The notes under the pieces: model-generated | Databases searched by the model: none | What the model was told of the DNA's origin: nothing | What the model saw: the letters and a program-made list of their open reading frames with translations, nothing else | Origin: Ensifer adhaerens | Lineage (GTDB): Bacteria; Pseudomonadota; Alphaproteobacteria; Rhizobiales; Rhizobiaceae | Assembly: GCF_002007205.1 (NCBI RefSeq) | Contig: NZ_LAZS01000005.1 | Span: 1,116,001 to 1,180,000 of the forward strand | Direction: 5' to 3' | DNA: 64,000 nucleotides | Made by a program: the position numbers and the translations under genes | Shown: in pieces, positions 33,778 through 50,526 of the stretch | How the letters are laid out: every line of letters begins with the position of its first letter | Position numbering within the stretch: position 1 is the first letter of the stretch

Positions 33778-34485
33778 ATGATGCTGGGGGCGATGAAGAA
33801 CTTCGTAAAGGCGACAAAGCTCATCGGCCGCATTCCAAAGATCGAGCAGAAACTTGACCTGCTTCTTTGGGAGACCCCGGATATCCCGCGCGACTTCTTC
33901 CCCAAATTCGTCGAAAGCGCGCGGCAGATGGGCTGGTTGGAGAGCGCAAAACAGCACAAGCCATTGACCGCCGATGGCGAGGCTTGCCCCTGGTACACCT
34001 ACCCGATGCTGCACTTCCTTGGCACCAGGCACCTGGCCGATTTGCGCGTATTTGAGTATGGCAGCGGCAATTCCACCCTTTGGTGGAGCCGCAAGGCGAA
34101 GTCGGTCGTCAGCGTGGAACACGACCGCGGCTGGTTCGAGCTGATCTCGAAACAGTCCCCGGCCAACGTCAGTTACAACTATCGCGAACTGGTGGAGGGT
34201 GGCGACTACTCCACCGAGGTGACGCGCCATCAAGACGTGCCGTTCGACGTTGTCGTCATTGACGGCCGTGATCGCGTAAATTGCGCCAAGGCGACGATGA
34301 GCCTGAAGCAGAAGCCATCCGCGATCATCTGGGACAACAGCGAACGCGAGAGGTATCAGGAGGGCTACGACCTCTTGATCAACAACGGTTACCGCCGCCT
34401 CGACTTCGACGGTTTCGGACCGGTCAACGGTCGCCCCTGGCGGACGTCCGTGTTCTACATGCCGGACAACTGCCTTAAAATCTGA
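33778..34485 (+). CDS. class I SAM-dependent methyltransferase-like protein
   Basis: A 235-residue protein. The SAM-binding strand and loop VFEYGSGNSTLWWS sits near residues 90-103, the acidic strand end VVSVEHD near 114, and a post-motif VVVIDGRDRVNCA near 160. These are motifs I, II and IV of a Rossmann-fold methyltransferase. The start has GAGGGAG six bases upstream. It begins a plus-strand run with an FkbM methyltransferase and a GT2 glycosyltransferase, so a glycan or lipid-glycan substrate is likely. The closest subfamily is not certain. Confidence 0.75.
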   Translation: MMLGAMKNFVKATKLIGRIPKIEQKLDLLLWETPDIPRDFFPKFVESARQMGWLESAKQHKPLTADGEACPWYTYPMLHFLGTRHLADLRVFEYGSGNSTLWWSRKAKSVVSVEHDRGWFELISKQSPANVSYNYRELVEGGDYSTEVTRHQDVPFDVVVIDGRDRVNCAKATMSLKQKPSAIIWDNSERERYQEGYDLLINNGYRRLDFDGFGPVNGRPWRTSVFYMPDNCLKI

Positions 34486-34550
34486 GGCTGAATCACGTTA
34501 ATCCTGGCCGGGCGCTTCGTCCGGAAGACACTGCCATTGCTGAGGGAACT

Positions 34551-35273
34551 ATGATCAAGGGAAAGCTGTTGAAACGGGCGCTTCGCTCAGCAGCCTCGAT
34601 GCTGACGCGACAGGGTTTCCATGTTTCCGAGGAGCGCTATTCGGCGGCGTACCTGAAGCGCTATGACTTCGAGATCAACACCTTCATCGATATCGGCGTC
34701 TATCAAGGCAGCCCGGTGTTCTACGAGCTTTTCAAGGATAAGAAGTTCATCCTGATCGACCCGCAGCCGGATACGATGGAAAAGGCGGCCGAGAGCGTAA
34801 AGGGCCTCGACTTCGACTACATCCAGTCAGGGGCAGGCGCGACGAGGGGTACGGCGACCCTGGCGCTCGAGGGCCCCTCCTCCAGCTTGATGAAGCGCAG
34901 GGACTGGAAGCGACAAGCGGAAAAAACCGTAGAAATCCAGATCGCCCCGCTTGACGAGCTGCTGGCGAACAGAGGCTATTCCGGTCCGTTTGGGCTGAAA
35001 GTCGACACGGAAGGCTTCGACCTTGATGTCCTCAAGGGCGCCGTGCAAACGCTTAAGGAAACGCACTTCGTGTTTACCGAAGCCAGTCTTCGTCGCCGGT
35101 TTGAGGGCGGTTATCGGTTTTCGGAACTTGTCGCCTTCATGGCCGAGCAAGGCTTCGAAGTTGCCGACGTCATCCCGCATAGGTCGCACAATCGCCTGGT
35201 CGACGTCCTCTTCGTGCGCGCGGGCAGCCCAGCCCTGGAACCGAACGCCGTTCCTGTGCGTACGGTCGGCTAG
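34551..35273 (+). CDS. FkbM family methyltransferase
   Basis: A 240-residue protein of the FkbM group. NTFIDIGVYQGSPVFYELF forms the SAM-binding loop (residues 43-61), LIDPQPDTMEKA the acidic position, and FGLKVDTEGFDLDVLKGA the conserved KxDxEGxE-like motif. FkbM enzymes commonly O-methylate sugars in surface polysaccharides. The start ATG has GAGGGAAC immediately upstream, a leader very like that of the preceding methyltransferase, and the two are 65 bases apart. Confidence 0.9.
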   Translation: MIKGKLLKRALRSAASMLTRQGFHVSEERYSAAYLKRYDFEINTFIDIGVYQGSPVFYELFKDKKFILIDPQPDTMEKAAESVKGLDFDYIQSGAGATRGTATLALEGPSSSLMKRRDWKRQAEKTVEIQIAPLDELLANRGYSGPFGLKVDTEGFDLDVLKGAVQTLKETHFVFTEASLRRRFEGGYRFSELVAFMAEQGFEVADVIPHRSHNRLVDVLFVRAGSPALEPNAVPVRTVG

Positions 35274-35372
35274 TAAACAGGCAGACTTAGTTTCCACCGG
35301 ATACTCAGCGCGCGCCCGGCAACGACAATTCTGCCGTTGAACGGGCGTAGACCGCAACAGGAACTGGCATCG

Positions 35373-36221
35373 ATGCGCGTAACACTTGCGATATGCTGCT
35401 ACAACGCCGAAGAGACGATCGAGCGGACTCTCGCCTCGGCCAGACAATTGGACTGGGATGATCTGGAGATCCTCGTCTGCGACGATGCATCCACGGACCG
35501 ATCCGCAGACGTCGTTCGATCCATCATTCAGCAGGATTCCCGCGTAAGGCTGGTCGTTCACAGCGCCAACAAGGGCAATGCCGGCGCACGCAACACCCTT
35601 GCGCGCGAAGCCACAGGCGAGATTCTGGCCTTCCTGGATTCGGACGACGAAAACGCTCCGGGGCGGCTAAAGGTTCAGGTGGAAAAGCTGCTGGCGGCGG
35701 AAGAACGCCATTCGGCGCCGGTCTCAGTCTATTGCACGAGGCGCGTGATCTCCGGCGGCAAGACGACGAGCCTGAGCGCCATGGGTACCCTGCATCCGGT
35801 CGGCGGCAACGCGGTTGCCCTCCATCTGCTTTGCAACGATCCCATCCCCGGCGGTGGAAGGGTCGGCACCTGCACGATGCTCACCCGGGTTTCGACGTTG
35901 CGCAAGTTTACCTTCGACGAGGATTTCCGCCGAGCAGTCGATCGTGAATGGGCCATTCGTTTCGCCTTGGGAGGCGGATTGATCGCTGGCTGTGAAGAAA
36001 GCCTGGTCACGCAGCACCTTAGCCTCACAGACGGCAAGCGGGCCCGACAGAACGATGCACGACGTCAGGTGGTCCAGAAGTTCCGGTCCTACCTGCTGGA
36101 GCGGCGCTCCTATCTCTACGCGCTGACGATCCACCGCCCCGGCCGCATGTACACCAAGGGCCACAGGCTCCTGTTCGCGCCCGTTACCGCGGTTCTCTCT
36201 TGCTTTCGGAAACGCGGGTAG
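35373..36221 (+). CDS. GT2 family glycosyltransferase
   Basis: A 282-residue GT-A fold transferase. It opens with VTLAICCYNAEETIERTLAS, followed by ILVCDDASTDRSADVV and the DXD-like motif FLDSDDENAPGRL near residue 93, which binds the metal and nucleotide-sugar. No membrane spans, so it is a cytoplasmic enzyme probably acting on a lipid-linked acceptor. The start is the ATG giving MRVTLAIC; an upstream in-frame start adds only unlikely residues. Third gene of the plus-strand glycan run. Confidence 0.9.
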   Translation: MRVTLAICCYNAEETIERTLASARQLDWDDLEILVCDDASTDRSADVVRSIIQQDSRVRLVVHSANKGNAGARNTLAREATGEILAFLDSDDENAPGRLKVQVEKLLAAEERHSAPVSVYCTRRVISGGKTTSLSAMGTLHPVGGNAVALHLLCNDPIPGGGRVGTCTMLTRVSTLRKFTFDEDFRRAVDREWAIRFALGGGLIAGCEESLVTQHLSLTDGKRARQNDARRQVVQKFRSYLLERRSYLYALTIHRPGRMYTKGHRLLFAPVTAVLSCFRKRG

Positions 36222-36565
36222 CTTCCTGCTCGTGTAGTGCGGCGCAGAGCTTCACAAATATCCCCGAGTGAAGTCTCCTCGATAAAAGCTCTGGCCTCGT
36301 CGCGCCCCCGCGACAAGGCCTTCGCCGAGGCCGGTGTCGCGGCTGCCAGCTGGGCACCCGCCTTCCGGCGGCGTCTGCGTCTTCTCGACGTCCGAGCCGC
36401 TGGCATTTGCAGCTAGGCGCAGCGCGTTGCCGATGACCCCCGGCTGATCGGCCCACTCGCCTTTGGGGTTCTTGCCGGTGACACAGATCGTCCATCCACG
36501 CCCATTCACCGGGAAACCGGTCTGCGGGGCGGTCAACGACCGCAATAGGCCAATCGAGCAGCGCA
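36222..36565. other. intergenic stretch, possibly gene debris
   Basis: About 340 bases without a credible gene. A minus-strand frame contains FPVNGRGWTICVTGKNPKG and GVIGNALRLAANASG, which look like a protein fragment, but the frame is flanked by low-quality sequence and has no start site. The HicB relic begins directly after. No terminator is seen after the glycosyltransferase. Confidence 0.4.
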
Positions 36566-36941
36566 GTGGACGCCGACAGCGATTTCGGTGCGTCCCTTCC
36601 TGATTTTCCAGGTGTTCTAACCGCAGGCACCAGCCTCGAAGATGCGCGCGCCATGGCTGACGAAGCCTTGGCGCTGAATATCTACGGCCTAGTCGCTGAT
36701 GGGGAGGCGATTCCCGAACCTTCATATTTGGATGCCGCGATGGCCGATCCTGAGAACAATGAGGGCGTTGCCATTCTAGTAGCACTCAAGACTGAGGCGA
36801 AAAAATCGGTCCGCGTAAACCTCACTTTACCTTGATGATGTTCTTCAGCAAATCGACGCCTTTGTAGAGGCTTGCGGACTGACCCGTTCAGGATTTCTGG
36901 CAAAGGCCGCCAAACGAGAGATGGAACTCGAGATGGCATGA
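36566..36941 (+). pseudogene. hicB: HicB-family antitoxin, truncated and frameshifted
   Basis: The frame from 36566 encodes DADSDFGASLPDFPGVLTAG, the core HicB motif, and runs to SVRVNLTLP, where it meets a stop at 36833-36835. Skipping a single T at 36833 restores DVLQQIDAFVEACGLTRS and a normal HicB C-terminal ribbon-helix-helix region ending at 36941. The usual first ten or so N-terminal residues are also missing, and no hicA toxin is found upstream. So this is an orphan relic with two lesions, one a simple +1 frameshift that sequencing error could also explain. Confidence 0.8.
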
Positions 36942-36950
36942 GTATCAGAA

Positions 36951-36977
36951 GCCCGGGGTTCCCCTCGGGTTTTCTTT
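36951..36977 (+). terminator. intrinsic terminator after the hicB relic
   Basis: The stem CCCGGGG/CCTCGGG has a short loop and is followed by TTTTCTTTT. It starts about ten bases past the restored HicB stop, the natural place for the end of a hicAB transcript. Confidence 0.6.
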
Positions 36978-37192
36978 TCCAGTCTGAAGCCATATCGATG
37001 CAGTTCGAATTGAGCCATATAGACCTGATGAGGTGAGGTGAGCGCTGTGCAGTCGCCGCGGCTGACCGGGTGGCGATTAGCTGTACGCCTGCTTAAGCTG
37101 AACTGTCACAGATGCGCACGCTTTGAAAGGTTTGCATCGGGACCAAACGGCTGATAAGCGTCCGTCACCCAGACGAGGAGCGATGAAGCAGG

Positions 37193-39718
37193 ATGTGGGT
37201 AGACGATGAACTTTGGCTCAATGCGGGCCGATGGGTGTTAAGGTTGGCCCCCCACTACGGCACAATCATCACCCTCAATGAGTTTGTGCCGCTGAGCCAG
37301 AACTGTCTGCCGATCGAATTCGCACATATCCTTGAGCCTGATACGTGCGCCATCGTCATTCCCATCGGAGATATTGATCGGCTGCCCCTTGCCTGGATCT
37401 CGGAACTCGACATGTTCCGCGCATTGTATGCAGACGCCTCTTTTGTCGTGCTTGCCAAGCGCATCTCCTCAGACCTCGACGAGCGAGGGACGCACGCGCC
37501 AGAGGTTCTGGCGATTCGGGAGAGAATCTTGGCCGGCGACGCGGTCAGAGCGAACCATGTCGACCATGACCTTTCGACTGCGACCAACGGTGATCAGTAT
37601 GGTTTGTTGATCACCGCCAGCATGACTGGCAACTGCGGCGACAAGCTCCTCGCAGCGGCCGCTCTGGACCTATTGCAACAGGCGAACCCTGCCTTGAAAT
37701 GGATCGTCGCCGACCCGGCTGTCGATCGGCAGCTAGTAGCGCGATCGACAATGGTGGCCCTCGGCCCTGGCGGATACCTGTACGATCTTCACAATTTCGA
37801 GGGGAACACCCTTTACTACCAAAACATAGGAAACTTTTTCCGTTTTGGCTTCGTTGCCCAAGAGTATGACAAGCCACTCATCTCTTTGGGCCTAGGCTAC
37901 CAAGGCGTAGTCAGTAAGAACACGGCGAAGTACGTCAGCCGATCATTGAGCCGCGCTCTACTCATAACGACAAGAGATGTTGAGACTGCTCGCTTCGTCG
38001 TTGATCACTTGGCGCCCTCTCCGCCTCTGATTTCCGGCGACGACTTTAGCCTTCAGTTCAGGGAAAGGCTTGCCTCACTGTCGAGCGCGCGGCCAAATGC
38101 TCCCCCTTATATCGTTTTTTGCGGCAACGCGTCTTTTAGCCAAACGGACACGGGACTGATTGCATCTGCCTGCCAGTCCAAAAGCATCGCCATCCATCTG
38201 ATCATCCAGGCCGCAGAGGATGTAACTTCTTGCGAGGATTGCCTTCATCAGCTTCAAGCCTTAGGCGCGGATGCGAAGATCGTTGACCTTCGGCAGGCCC
38301 TACACACCGAGTTTATGATGGAGATTGCTCATTCATCTGCAGTGATCACCTCGCGATTCCACGGGATGATGCTTGGCTACATGGCCAACCTCCCGGTTTT
38401 CGTCAAAGGCGAGATTGGCGACAAGCGTCATCGCTTCTACTCGACCGTCCCGTCCGAAGAGACCTTCGTCTTCGGCAATGCAGCCGGCATTGTGGACGCG
38501 ATTCTGCCATTAATTTCATGCACGCCGTCGGTCCCAGATAGACCATTGACGCGGCAACTGGCAGGGATAAGCAACATCAGGAAGCTTGTTCAAACGGCCC
38601 TGTCGCCAGCCCTTCTCGAGACTTGCCCGCCACCGGCAAAAATGCAACTAACGCCTACCAGTTTAGGCCCCATGGAGAAGACATTGGATCAGAGACAGCA
38701 ACTTGACGACATGAGCAGCAAGATCGCCGCGCTGAAGAGCCTGGTCAACGAAGAATCGCAGCCGAACATCAATGCGCTGTCCGAGGCCATCAGAAACGTA
38801 AATGTGCTGGCGCTGAACGTGAAGTTTTTCGGCTATGAGCTGGCACGTGCACTCGCCGCCGCGCTTCCCGTTCGGGCGGGCCTGTCTCCGACGTCCGTGC
38901 CGTTAAAGTCGAAGCCGAGCACCCAAGCCGATCTTGAATCCGATTGGGTCGCCTACTGGGCTTCAAAGCTGAAGGTTCCGGTCATTTTCCATCGGAAGCT
39001 CTGGGAACTTTGCTATGCGATGCAGGCGTTCCACGATGCCGGTGTGTTGGGCGAAGGGAGGCGTGGCCTCGGCTTCGGATGCGGGACGGAACCGCTGCCG
39101 TCCCTGATGGCATCATACGGCGCTGAAGTTGTTGTTACGGATCTCCATCCCGAAGCTCAAAACACCCAAGGATGGGCGAACACCAACCAGCACACGAAAA
39201 CACTGAACGAAGCCTTCAAAGATCACCTAGTGTCGAAGGACGTATTCGATCGAAAAGTATCGCTCGAATACGTCGACATGAATGCCATCCCCAGCCACCT
39301 GCGCGACTTTGATTTCTGCTGGTCTATCTGCGCCCTTGAACACCTAGGCAGCATAGAGAAGGGCTTAAATTTCATCGAGAACTCGATCGACGTTCTGAAG
39401 CCCGGCGGCGTTGCAGTCCATACGACAGAGTTCAACTTCACCCGCGACGACATCACCTTCGACCATTGGAACACAGTTCTTTTCCAGCGTAAGCACTTTG
39501 TGGAAATCAGCGAACGACTTACAGCAAAGGGCTACAAGGTCGCGCCGCTGGACTTTGACGTCGGCAACAAGCCCCTGGACAAGTTCATTGACGTTCCGCC
39601 GTTCCCCCACGACATGGGGGATTACATGCGAGACATCTGGGGGAACGACAATAACCACATCAAGGTGTCGGTCGACGGCATCCCCGCAACCTGCTTCGGC
39701 ATGGTCATTACCAAGTAA
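37193..39718 (+). CDS. polysaccharide pyruvyl transferase fused to a class I methyltransferase
   Basis: An 841-residue cytoplasmic protein with three parts. Residues 1-130 are unrecognised. Residues 135-445 form a polysaccharide pyruvyl transferase domain: MTGNCGDKLLAAAALDLL, ALGPGGYLYD and the SRFHGMMLGYMANLPVFVKG segment with the conserved His. After a linker with a helical stretch (500-550), residues 585-841 form a SAM methyltransferase (GLGFGCGTEPLPSLMA, VVVTDLHP, FDFCWSICALEHLGS, VLKPGGVAVHTTEF). Both halves keep key residues. The start is uncertain: GAGGAG lies 12 bases upstream, closer to an out-of-frame ATG at 37183. By eye it is more AT-rich than the core genes. Confidence 0.85.
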   Translation: MWVDDELWLNAGRWVLRLAPHYGTIITLNEFVPLSQNCLPIEFAHILEPDTCAIVIPIGDIDRLPLAWISELDMFRALYADASFVVLAKRISSDLDERGTHAPEVLAIRERILAGDAVRANHVDHDLSTATNGDQYGLLITASMTGNCGDKLLAAAALDLLQQANPALKWIVADPAVDRQLVARSTMVALGPGGYLYDLHNFEGNTLYYQNIGNFFRFGFVAQEYDKPLISLGLGYQGVVSKNTAKYVSRSLSRALLITTRDVETARFVVDHLAPSPPLISGDDFSLQFRERLASLSSARPNAPPYIVFCGNASFSQTDTGLIASACQSKSIAIHLIIQAAEDVTSCEDCLHQLQALGADAKIVDLRQALHTEFMMEIAHSSAVITSRFHGMMLGYMANLPVFVKGEIGDKRHRFYSTVPSEETFVFGNAAGIVDAILPLISCTPSVPDRPLTRQLAGISNIRKLVQTALSPALLETCPPPAKMQLTPTSLGPMEKTLDQRQQLDDMSSKIAALKSLVNEESQPNINALSEAIRNVNVLALNVKFFGYELARALAAALPVRAGLSPTSVPLKSKPSTQADLESDWVAYWASKLKVPVIFHRKLWELCYAMQAFHDAGVLGEGRRGLGFGCGTEPLPSLMASYGAEVVVTDLHPEAQNTQGWANTNQHTKTLNEAFKDHLVSKDVFDRKVSLEYVDMNAIPSHLRDFDFCWSICALEHLGSIEKGLNFIENSIDVLKPGGVAVHTTEFNFTRDDITFDHWNTVLFQRKHFVEISERLTAKGYKVAPLDFDVGNKPLDKFIDVPPFPHDMGDYMRDIWGNDNNHIKVSVDGIPATCFGMVITK

Positions 39719-39777
39719 CACAAGAACTACGGAGGGGAGTCTTTGACGACTGCACGTGTAGCGATCGCGTTGCGTAG

Positions 39778-40815
39778 ATGATTTACGTTTTCTGCGGACT
39801 CCCCTCCCCCCACGCCATGTTCGCGGCTCGGCTTGGAGTAGATATATTCCGGGAACGGTTCCGAGATTACCACTACATTGTCGCCAATACTCTAGACCAG
39901 CTTCGAGATGGCCTTGCACAAAGAGGCGAGCGCCATGCCTTGCTTTATTTTGACGTCCCTGACGAAAAAATATGCCAATCAATCGTGAAGCATGGCATCC
40001 CGACGGTTCTCATCGTCGAACCGGTTGAGCAAGCTGTCCTTTATTCAATGCAGGCTCGTTCACTTTCCGTGCTGGAAGCGCTTCGGTTCGTTAGTCAGTC
40101 AGCGTCAGCATTGTTTCCGATTGCGTCGTCCGAGACGATCGTTCCGCTTAGGCTGGGAACCCACTCGGCCGAGTTGGAAACCCTCATCAGCCGGATATCG
40201 TTATCGTTGGGATTCTCCCTGACCTCGCAGAATGTCCAGAATATCCTGGCGCTTTATGGCCAAGCCGAGGGAGCCAAAATCCGTCCGCTGGCTGAGATCA
40301 TCGACGAAAGGATCGAGCACGCGATCGAAGCTAGATCTAGCGCCTCGAAGCTTACGAAAGGCGAGCGAGAACTTATCAGTGCCGCGGCCAGCAACTATGA
40401 TCCTCTCATGTCGGGAGAGTCGGTTCAGCGGATCACTTGGCCGGTGGCTATGTGCTTAAGCGGCGAAAAACCACATCATGGGCTCAACGGCCCGGTAGAT
40501 ATGACAGGTCCGGCGCGGGCCATAAGTTTCGGGCCATACATGCATCTCCCGAGTGGGGTTTGGCGCGCCGAGGTCACATTCTCCGTCGAGAAGAACTTCT
40601 CCGGCAATTCGATAGTCGTGGATGTCTTGGCGGATGGAGAAATCGCAGTTCTCGGGAAAAGCCCGCTGCCCACAAGCGGATCATTCACCGTTCAGCTAGA
40701 ATTTGAAGTAACGAGGCCGCACGTGCCCTTGGAGGTTAGGACTTTCATCGGGACTGGTGCGATTGAAGGCGAGTTTGAACTTGTCGATGTAACGCTGGTT
40801 AGGCTCGATCCGTAG
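39778..40815 (+). CDS. unrecognised protein of the glycan locus
   Basis: A 345-residue protein with no signal peptide or membrane span. The N-terminal 115 residues look like a Rossmann-type alpha/beta domain (MIYVFCGLPSPHAMFAARLG, LLYFDVPDEK, VLIVEPVEQAVLYS), reminiscent of sulfotransferase or kinase-like P-loop folds but without a GxxGxGK motif. A helical middle is followed by a beta-sandwich-like C-terminus (about 240-345; SGVWRAEVTFSVEKNFSGNSIVVDVLADG), resembling a carbohydrate-binding or accessory domain. It follows the pyruvyl-transferase fusion by 59 bases. The start overlaps the stop of a 12-codon leader frame by ATGA. Confidence 0.75.
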   Translation: MIYVFCGLPSPHAMFAARLGVDIFRERFRDYHYIVANTLDQLRDGLAQRGERHALLYFDVPDEKICQSIVKHGIPTVLIVEPVEQAVLYSMQARSLSVLEALRFVSQSASALFPIASSETIVPLRLGTHSAELETLISRISLSLGFSLTSQNVQNILALYGQAEGAKIRPLAEIIDERIEHAIEARSSASKLTKGERELISAAASNYDPLMSGESVQRITWPVAMCLSGEKPHHGLNGPVDMTGPARAISFGPYMHLPSGVWRAEVTFSVEKNFSGNSIVVDVLADGEIAVLGKSPLPTSGSFTVQLEFEVTRPHVPLEVRTFIGTGAIEGEFELVDVTLVRLDP

Positions 40816-40887
40816 CCTTTGCGTCCATGTGATCAGTGCTTGGCAGCCGACGTCGCCTCGATCGCCGAGACGAATGTTCGGAACGTG

Positions 40888-41647
40888 GTAGGGCGGCAGG
40901 AACCAGAGCCGTGCGCCAGCCGCCGTAACAATCTGGCCGATAGCTGCCGATTTGTGGTTGCCGAGAGTGTCCATGATGACAATGTCGCCGGGTTTGAGGG
41001 TGGCGCGAGCTGCTGTTCAACATAGGCGCGGAAACATTGGCCATTGATCGGCCCGTCGGAGACGCAGGGTGCGGTGAGCTGGTTGCAACGCAGTGCGCCC
41101 GGGAGCGTCAGCGTGCGCCAGTGGCCGTGCGGAGCAAAGGCGCGCAAGCCTTCGAACCCAGCCACGCAGCGGCGTCATGTTGGTCTTGGTCCAGGTCTCA
41201 TCGATAAACACCTGTCGCCTGGGATCGAGAGCACCCTGCCATGCCTTCCATCGCTGACGTCGGCGGACAATGTCGGCACGGGCCTGCTCAAGGGCGAACG
41301 GCTTTTTTTTTGAAGCGCAGCCCCTCGCGCCGGATGAATTGCCACACCGCATTGTGGGAAACGGTCACACCGCGCCCCGCCAGTTCGGCCTTCAATCCGA
41401 AAAGGGTCAGTTGCGGGTTCTGGGTGAGCCGCTCGGTGATGAAGGCGCGATGCGGCTCCAGAATGCGCTTGCGATGGCCACCCATCTTGCCCGGCGCGAC
41501 CGAGCCGGTCGCCCTCTAGCGCTGCGGCCACTTCACCATCGATGAAACCGAGACACCAAGGCGCGCCGCAACCGAACGGCAGTTCTCACCCGCCAGAACC
41601 GCGGCAACAACACGTTCGCGAAGATCATTCGAAAGGGCTGGCGTCAT
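40888..41647 (-). pseudogene. IS630 family transposase, decayed
   Basis: Read on the minus strand, the frame starts MTPALSNDLRERVVAAVLAG (helix-turn-helix) and meets an in-frame TAG at 41516-41518. It resumes through GGHRKRILEPHRAFITERL and changes frame at an A9 run (41303-41311, T on the plus strand). It then continues with QVFIDETWTKTNMTPLRGW (first catalytic Asp/Glu region) and changes frame twice more, near 41150 and 41000. It ends abruptly at ARLWFLPPY, losing the C-terminal part with the last catalytic acid. Not functional. It lies next to the 3' end of the glycan locus. Confidence 0.85.
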
Positions 41648-41946
41648 CAGATACTGGCCTCCGCCCAGCCAGCATCTTGAAACACTAAACCGGCCTGCCG
41701 GCTCACGGCCTTCATAAGCCACTCGTCCAGATGATTGCCGAGAGCGGCAACAGCCGCAGCAGCAAACTAAAGGCGCAGCTCGGGTGGCGGAGCGACTCTC
41801 TGGCGAACCTTTACCCCGAACACGGACAAGAACCGGCTTGCAGTTTCGGGCGCGGAGAAACTGAACGTAAACATCCTAACCTCTCACTCTAATATTAGTG
41901 AGGGATTGAGCAGAGTTTCTTATTCGAAAACAGTTATTTAAAAAAC
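41648..41946. other. intergenic region between the IS630 relic and tRNA-Arg
   Basis: About 300 bases with no credible gene. The half nearest the transposase may still be IS-derived, but I could not identify a terminal inverted repeat. The right part is AT-rich and holds a small palindrome around 41888-41902 (CTCACTAATATTAGTGAG-like). Confidence 0.4.
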
Positions 41947-42023
41947 TGGCGACCCCTGCAGGATTCGAACCTGCGACAACCTGCTTAGAAGGCAGGTGCT
42001 CTATCCAACTGAGCTAAGGGGCC
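41947..42023 (-). tRNA. tRNA-Arg (TCT)
   Basis: A cloverleaf on the minus strand, 77 bases with encoded CCA. The acceptor GGCCCCT pairs with AGGGGTC, the anticodon stem CCTGC/GCAGG encloses CTTCTAA (anticodon TCT), and the T arm is GCAGG-TTCGAAT-CCTGC. It is a possible right boundary of the accessory block that begins after tRNA-Lys. Confidence 0.98.
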
Positions 42024-49690: not shown

Positions 49691-49765
49691 GCGCCCTTCG
49701 TCTATCGGTTAGGACACCAGATTTTCATTCTGGGAAGAGGGGTTCGACTCCCCTAGGGCGTGCCA
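49691..49765 (+). tRNA. tRNA-Glu (TTC), copy 1
   Basis: 75 bases with encoded CCA. The anticodon stem CCAGA/TCTGG encloses TTTTCAT (TTC). The sequence is identical by eye to the two copies that follow. Transcribed from its own promoter. Confidence 0.98.
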
Positions 49766-49918
49766 CTGTGTTGACCTTCCTCTCCCAAGAAAATCGTCGT
49801 TTTTCGTATTGAAGCGGCAACTTGCCGTCCCGGAAGCATCTTCGATTCCGGGCCTTCCGACGCCGAATTTTTCTCGCCGATTTCAACAGGAAAAGCATAA
49901 AAAAACTGAGTTTGGCGC

Positions 49919-49946
49919 TTGCGGTATCCAGAGTCGCTGGCTATAA
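49919..49946 (+). promoter_or_regulatory. promoter of tRNA-Glu copy 2
   Basis: The same TTGCGG and CTATAA elements with a 16-base spacer as copy 1, but a spacer sequence of its own, shared with copy 3. Confidence 0.6.
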
Positions 49947-49964
49947 GGCGCCCACACAGCGAGT

Positions 49965-50039
49965 GCGCCCTTCGTCTATCGGTTAGGACACCAGATTTTC
50001 ATTCTGGGAAGAGGGGTTCGACTCCCCTAGGGCGTGCCA
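49965..50039 (+). tRNA. tRNA-Glu (TTC), copy 2
   Basis: Identical by eye to copy 1, 274 bases downstream of it, with encoded CCA and anticodon TTC. Confidence 0.98.
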
Positions 50040-50192
50040 CTGTGTTGACCTTCCTCTCCCAAGAATATCGTCGTTTTTCGTATTGAAGCGATAACTTGCC
50101 GTCCCGGAAGCATCTTCGATTCCGGGCCTTCCGACGCCGAATTTTTCTCGTCGATTTCAACAGGAAAAGCATAAAAAAACTGAGTTTGGCGC

Positions 50193-50220
50193 TTGCGGTA
50201 TCCAGAGTCGCTGGCTATAA
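50193..50220 (+). promoter_or_regulatory. promoter of tRNA-Glu copy 3
   Basis: TTGCGG, a 16-base spacer and CTATAA, identical in this stretch to the promoter of copy 2, 18 bases before the third tRNA. Confidence 0.6.
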
Positions 50221-50238
50221 GGCGCCCACACAGCGAGT

Positions 50239-50313
50239 GCGCCCTTCGTCTATCGGTTAGGACACCAGATTTTCATTCTGGGAAGAGGGGTTCGACTCCC
50301 CTAGGGCGTGCCA
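50239..50313 (+). tRNA. tRNA-Glu (TTC), copy 3
   Basis: Identical by eye to copies 1 and 2; encoded CCA and anticodon TTC. The sequence diverges from the repeat unit nine bases after CCA, which marks the end of the tandem array. Confidence 0.98.
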
Positions 50314-50451
50314 CTGTGTTGAATTTCTCCCCCACATCAGCGACCATTTCACCAGCTAGCCACTGCGTATCGATTTTGCTCGTCGTTTTCGCCGGGCAAG
50401 CTTAAGATACGGGAATGTGCAGCAATCGCCTGCACTCAATCGGATACCGAG

Positions 50452-50526
50452 GCGCCCATCGTCTAGCGGTCAGGACGCCGCCCTCTCACGGCGGCAACAC
50501 GGGTTCGATTCCCGTTGGGCGTGCCA
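50452..50526 (+). tRNA. tRNA-Glu (CTC)
   Basis: 75 bases with encoded CCA. The anticodon stem CCGCC/GGCGG encloses CTCTCAC (CTC), and the acceptor GCGCCCA pairs with TGGGCGT. A different isoacceptor from the triplicated one, so it is not part of the repeat. Confidence 0.98.

Follow-up and report, generated by a model that had tools for sequence, protein, structure and literature searches.

A single open reading frame (ORF) of Ensifer adhaerens encodes an 841-residue protein in which a polysaccharide pyruvyl transferase (PST) is joined to a class I S-adenosylmethionine (SAM) methyltransferase. Judged by its sequence, the fusion is real and rare and unites two known enzyme families; it is not a new kind of system. 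The protein is most likely an end-to-end fusion of two enzymes with predicted surface-glycan-modifying activities. The account that we favor, with moderate confidence, is that a PST was inserted at a phage-borne methyltransferase gene, became fused to it, and would have been retained as dual glycan-modifying cargo. Positions here and in Table 1 are those of the window, the whole 64,000-nucleotide stretch of contig NZ_LAZS01000005.1 that was analyzed.

Table 1. Features of the fused gene and its surroundings in the window
Feature	Position	Strand	Basis
Region without counterpart in G216, proposed prophage remnant	36246..41946	.	Genome comparison
Endolysin gene fragment, 255 bp, 82% to L012 7273-7528	36322..36576	-	DNA match
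46-bp leader, like the sequence ahead of the ST2 stand-alone methyltransferase, 87%	37132..37177	+	DNA match
~1.49 kb (N-terminal domain and PST), lacking in ST2 between leader and methyltransferase ATG	37178..38666	+	DNA match
Fused ORF: N-terminal domain, pyruvyl transferase, and methyltransferase, 841 aa	37193..39718	+	ORF calls, Pfam
N-terminal accessory domain, residues 1-134	37193..37594	+	Weak relatives in L018, L133
Polysaccharide pyruvyl transferase (PST), residues 135-493	37595..38671	+	Pfam, published motifs
AAAAA run upstream of methyltransferase ATG	38638..38642	+	Sequence, frames
Class I SAM methyltransferase, residues 494-841, from Met494 with its own helical N-terminus	38672..39715	+	Pfam, homologues, motifs
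345-aa companion, no Pfam family above cut-off	39778..40815	+	ORF, ST2 match, predicted structure
tRNA-Arg(tct), proposed attachment site	41947..42023	-	tRNA call, genome comparisons

The 841-residue frame contains no internal stops, and a search of its own genome (G000; 22 contigs totaling 6.87 Mb) recovered it once, with the same frame open. Pfam scans placed PS_pyruv_trans at residues 147 to 404 (71.1 bits; cut-off, 25.3) and Methyltransf_23 at residues 619 to 769 (32 bits; cut-off, 27), with Methyltransf_11 also matched (29 bits; cut-off, 21.2). None of 2,000 base shuffles reached the 493 open codons that lie ahead of the methyltransferase, and the longest open run in the five other frames over this stretch was 112, which argues that the openness is beyond chance. 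GC content by codon position was gene-like in both the PST half and the methyltransferase half.

Both halves carry the sequence marks of their families. The WbbZ study names three conserved features of the PST family, NxGD, R-x-x-x-S/T, and a conserved histidine (PMC10629545); the fused protein has N147xG149D150 (GNCGD starts at residue 146), R261xxxT265, and H390 (SRFHG at 387). In CsaB, activity was lost with both substitutions tried at R148, while H308A and H308R were inactive and H308K and H308S partly active (PMC10435577). The SAM loop GFGCG of the methyltransferase spans residues 627 to 631 (GFGCGTE from 627) and is followed by the acidic D650; in an alignment of ten methyltransferases, G631 and D650 were invariant and the first two glycines of GFGCG variable. 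By these marks, neither active site looks degenerate. A first-pass annotation had described a complete PST domain and a methyltransferase with an intact SAM loop within one 841-residue protein and had named a degenerate active site as grounds for doubt; the uninterrupted frame, the Pfam scores, and the motifs uphold that description.

The PST half is remote from characterized proteins. Its best sequenced relative is only 27 to 28% identical, and it falls outside the CsaB equivalog TIGR03609 (35 bits; 213.1 required). A single-sequence search of the PDB with the fused protein gave no match at an E value of 0.1. With a profile of three PST sequences, the top PDB entries were WbbZ (E value of 0.61) and Pvg1p (E value of 0.67). 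A single stretch scored above zero in each alignment, the NxGD region with WbbZ (9.3 bits) and the H region with Pvg1p (9.4 bits); the other PST motifs were in register but in negative-scoring stretches, and the WbbZ arginine was unaligned. A predicted model of residues 1 to 490, built from two rows, had a pLDDT of 32.9, too low for judging whether this half adopts the GT-B-like two-Rossmann fold of PSTs.

The first-pass annotation also noted an unrecognized N-terminal domain of ~130 residues. The extra domain is present, and it is not without relatives, weak as these are. It aligned with the N terminus of a 507-aa PST in L018 (Smith-Waterman score of 71; shuffled mean, 26; 0 of 1,000 shuffles as good) and with a region near the C-terminal end of a 1,012-aa protein (L133 588-3626; E value of 7.1e-7), the start of which resembles a glycosyltransferase by eye. 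Similarity to the double PST of Polaromonas was not significant (89 of 1,000 shuffles as good), and a profile of the domain found nothing at an E value of 1 among the retrieved proteins beyond its own three rows.

The boundary between the halves is set by stand-alone relatives of the methyltransferase. In E. adhaerens ST2, a separate gene (L012 8058-9104) encodes a 348-aa methyltransferase with 92% protein identity, and the same gene is found on viral contig IMGVR_UViG_2896377244_000002. Other stand-alone homologues have 338 aa (Azorhizobium doebereinerae) and 344 aa (Aquabacter). The start of the stand-alone methyltransferases aligns with Met494 of the fused protein, and most of the closer viral relatives open with a similar stretch in which, by eye, a PN...FG(Y/H)E pattern is conserved. 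The stretch first read as a helical linker is thus the N terminus of the methyltransferase itself, as seen in the stand-alone homologues. Since the methyltransferase starts at Met494 and the alignable PST homologue in L018 stops ~7 residues short of that position, the two enzymes appear to be fused end to end, almost without a linker. The methyltransferase profile had no match in the PDB at an E value of 0.01, and the window methyltransferase had none in PHROGs at the same threshold.

Comparison with ST2 suggests how the fusion arose. Window positions 37132-37177 match L012 8008-8053 (87% DNA identity), and matching resumes at 38667-40886 with L012 8053-10229 (84.6%); the extra ~1.49 kb of the window is thus flanked directly by the leader on one side and the methyltransferase ATG on the other. 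Because distant methyltransferase relatives are also stand-alone, a gain in the window lineage seems simpler than a loss in ST2. The locus, at what seems to be a hot spot for prophages, provides a base-level example of how a glycan-modifying fusion can originate: one can see the unfused gene, its leader, and both edges of the PST addition.

The junction lies close to a short homopolymer, the AAAAA run 29 bases ahead of the methyltransferase ATG, and this is the chief reason to question whether a fused protein is made at all. With one A fewer in the run, the PST frame would stop 20 bases before that ATG, leaving two adjacent genes, PST and methyltransferase; on this view, their joining would reflect either a sequence error of one base or slippage in the run at the level of the strain. 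The shortened PST would end about where the L018 homologue ends, and the methyltransferase, which the examined relatives encode separately, retains an ATG of its own. A frame change, however, brings an early stop in any sequence, a run of five bases is not a hard case for short-read sequencing, and the completeness of the assembly (22 contigs) is put at 99.99%. We consider the two-gene explanation unlikely, and our confidence in the fused reading as a whole is moderate because one sequence cannot tell whether the run is right.

The fusion appears to be confined to one genome in the samples searched, which were overlapping, held one genome per species, and were screened with strict cut-offs. 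The whole protein matched 9 of 297 family genomes at an E value of 1e-10, with a full-length match only in its own genome; G172 was the sole other family genome matched over the PST. Two of 16 genus genomes matched, the second being ST2, over the methyltransferase only. The PST half was found in 1 of 397 order genomes (E value of 1e-8) and the PST profile in 1 of 329 phylum genomes (E value of 1e-20), in each case its own; the methyltransferase profile was found in 4 of the 329, and the three besides its own have it in frames of 327 to 400 aa. Seven plasmid records matched, and both parts occurred together in none of them. The search for the same domain order that the first-pass annotation had proposed thus recovered the arrangement only in its own genome across the family, genus, order, and phylum samples.

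Fusions of PSTs in general are another matter. PF04230 occurs at 76 places in 55 of 337 class genomes. We scanned 18 PST proteins with Pfam, which account for 20 of these places and were chosen chiefly because their frames are long; in seven, a further Pfam family scores above cut-off (TPR, SDR, and glycosyltransferase among them), and two contain two PST stretches. One of the seven, a 580-aa protein of another alphaproteobacterium (L069 12148-13887), has Methyltransf_23 followed by PST. The earlier premise that PSTs normally stand alone is not supported by these counts: by domain content, PST fusions are not rare, and the methyltransferase-PST pairing exists elsewhere in the opposite order. 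A literature search for a bifunctional pyruvyl transferase/methyltransferase led to a paper on giant viruses, the passages of which show no such fusion. No literature was found joining PF04230 with a methyltransferase or joining polysaccharide pyruvyl transferase, methyltransferase, and prophage.

The fused gene and its companion lie in a region that looks like a prophage remnant carrying cargo; this reading draws on a single fragment of an endolysin gene, the neighboring tRNA, and comparison with ST2 and G216. In the related genome G216, the flanks at 36245 and 41932 are only ~200 bp apart, as in an empty site. Alignments of this place with 15 other genomes of the genus begin, in 11 cases, precisely at 41947, where the tRNA ends. 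The same tRNA-Arg in G303 is occupied by a 16-kb element (L121 1334-17347) that has a phage integrase and lies between 49-bp repeats of tRNA-Arg sequence; by reading, proteins of that element resemble an AAA+ ATPase and a helicase. Elsewhere in the window, four tandem tRNA-Glu genes (three ttc and one ctc) occupy 49691-50526.

The endolysin fragment corresponds to DNA within a 274-aa endolysin gene of ST2 (phrog_315; E value of 4.5e-49). There, in a predicted prophage, the methyltransferase and 345-aa genes lie between the endolysin gene and large opposite-strand genes, and DNA of this prophage also occurs on a viral-collection contig, exact across the 300 bases tested. At its copy of the tRNA-Arg, ST2 has another remnant (L119 8942-13968), which encodes a Methyltransf_11 protein, an FkbM methyltransferase, and a second homologue of the 345-aa protein; the prophage copy of the methyltransferase is on a different contig from this remnant. 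The genes at 33778-36221 are common to G216 and ST2 and are therefore placed outside the element; G154 lacks them at this place, and the stretches of G071 and G300 show no match to them. Within the element, no integrase, structural gene, or other intact phage gene was recognized, only the endolysin fragment (two element proteins were searched in PHROGs), which is why we use the term remnant rather than prophage. By eye, short broken frames at 36590-36940 resemble a HicB-type antitoxin.

Decay of this kind raises the question of whether the fusion is itself an accident, a recent PST insertion that is idle or decaying next to a methyltransferase that alone works, perhaps from its internal ATG. 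Consistent with this, the arrangement occurs in one genome only and the neighboring endolysin gene is reduced to a fragment. The dN/dS ratio between the window and ST2 was 0.069 for the methyltransferase and 0.089 for the 345-aa gene, which marks strong purifying selection on both genes; selection is demonstrable just for these two, for which the ratio was measured, the PST half being without a close sequenced relative. Against an accident, the PST region keeps its 493 open codons, gene-like codon use, and all three published active-site motifs, and we regard this explanation as quite improbable.

Relatives in viral contigs support a phage origin of the methyltransferase. Of 67 candidate stretches from the viral collection, 34 (L082 to L115) contained relatives according to a profile of ten methyltransferases, namely, ST2's own at 92% identity and 33 others at 32 to 55%. 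Their ORFs are 150 to 434 aa long; L099, L104, and L114 run off the contig end, and L106 has two stops within the match. In at least two cases (L085 and L087), the relative lies at one end of a ~34-kb contig. ORFs were listed around 8 of the 34 loci, and 10 neighboring proteins from 7 loci were scanned against PHROGs. Seven of the 10 had a named phage function (tape measure, two; exonuclease, two; terminase; head/portal; endolysin), two matched families of unknown function only, and one had no match. The methyltransferase thereby has the hallmark of phage cargo (a moron), with relatives within phage or prophage contigs beside phage genes. A tblastn search of phage records gave no match. Against viral contigs, the whole fused protein matched 1 of 4 candidate stretches and a profile of the 345-aa protein 1 of 26, in both cases that of ST2, and the PST profile matched 0 of 50. 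These data point to a phage-carried family of methyltransferases, predicted to act on glycans, in 34 viral-collection contigs.

The companion is present in 4 of 121 related genomes, its own included. Its best model (pLDDT of 80.1) pairs an alpha/beta first half with a beta-sandwich second half; the five models disagree, with mean pLDDT falling from 80.1 to 46.2. Weak fold matches include sulfotransferases and carbohydrate-binding modules (TM-score by query length of ≤0.40 among the best 50 rows), and we infer that the sulfotransferase-like and carbohydrate-binding-like matches may belong to its two predicted halves.

Gene neighborhoods suggest the substrate. In G003, a relative of the companion lies within an exporter cluster (gene identities by reading). 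Relatives of the methyltransferase have glycosyltransferases and an ABC exporter nearby in Azorhizobium (gene names by reading) and lie within 10 kb of annotated gmd, rmd, ctrC, and ctrD on a Sphingobium plasmid and beside an annotated ABC transporter and glycosyltransferase on a Phyllobacterium plasmid. Given these glycosyltransferases and exporters, a surface polysaccharide is the most likely predicted target. They also make it highly improbable that the halves serve different acceptors or roles, such as methylation of the pyruvate carboxyl or of a sugar nucleotide, even though class I methyltransferases take many substrates and no relative of this subfamily had a solved structure at an E value of 0.01.

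In the account that we favor, of an inserted PST fused to a phage-borne methyltransferase, the methyltransferase and its 345-aa partner would have arrived with a temperate phage, as cargo that modifies surface glycans. Next, a PST gene would have landed directly ahead of the methyltransferase start, the two merging into one frame, and the phage genes would have decayed while selection retained the cargo. The fused enzyme would most likely form a pyruvate ketal from phosphoenolpyruvate and transfer a methyl group from S-adenosylmethionine, the acceptor would be a polysaccharide that reaches the cell surface through an ABC transporter, and the outcome would be altered surface charge and altered sites recognized by phages or plant partners. 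Both groups can occur on one sugar: one source describes 4,6Pyr-3-O-Me-Glc in Mycobacterium smegmatis glycolipids (PMC6801904). A more specific version is doubtful, namely, that the protein is a lysogenic-conversion enzyme that arose by PST insertion at the start codon of the phage-borne methyltransferase and that would pyruvylate and methylate the same end of an ABC-exported polysaccharide, finishing the chain and masking a phage receptor. The same source reports that Rhizobium leguminosarum with exopolysaccharide lacking pyruvate is impaired in symbiosis (PMC6801904); a comparable surface change, if delivered by a phage, could therefore matter for plant recognition and also for phage sensitivity.

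Several known proteins resemble parts of the fused protein. The ketal-pyruvyltransferases WbbZ (6X1L), Pvg1p (5AX7), and CsaB have PF04230 and the NxGD, RxxxS/T, and H motifs in common with it, while the window protein adds an N-terminal domain and a C-terminal methyltransferase. WbdD adds methyl caps to O-antigen ends. WbbZ places a pyruvyl modification at O-antigen ends (PMC10629545). In the WbdD and WbbZ systems, separate enzymes decorate exported polysaccharides with terminal methyl or pyruvate groups, and that the window protein might cap a chain is, by this analogy, only a guess. The double PST on the plasmid of Polaromonas JS666 (L025 7557-10076; 839 aa) is near the window protein in length, and its first PST is related to the window PST (25.9% identity over residues 138 to 469), but its second half is another PST where the window protein has a methyltransferase. 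The L069 protein likewise unites a member of each enzyme family, in reversed order, and, unlike in the window protein, the N-terminal accessory domain was not found in it by profile search. The ST2 locus shares the methyltransferase (identity extending over 348 residues), the same 345-aa neighbor (91%), and a matching leader with the window; unlike its counterpart there, the ST2 methyltransferase is unfused, with no PST ahead of it.
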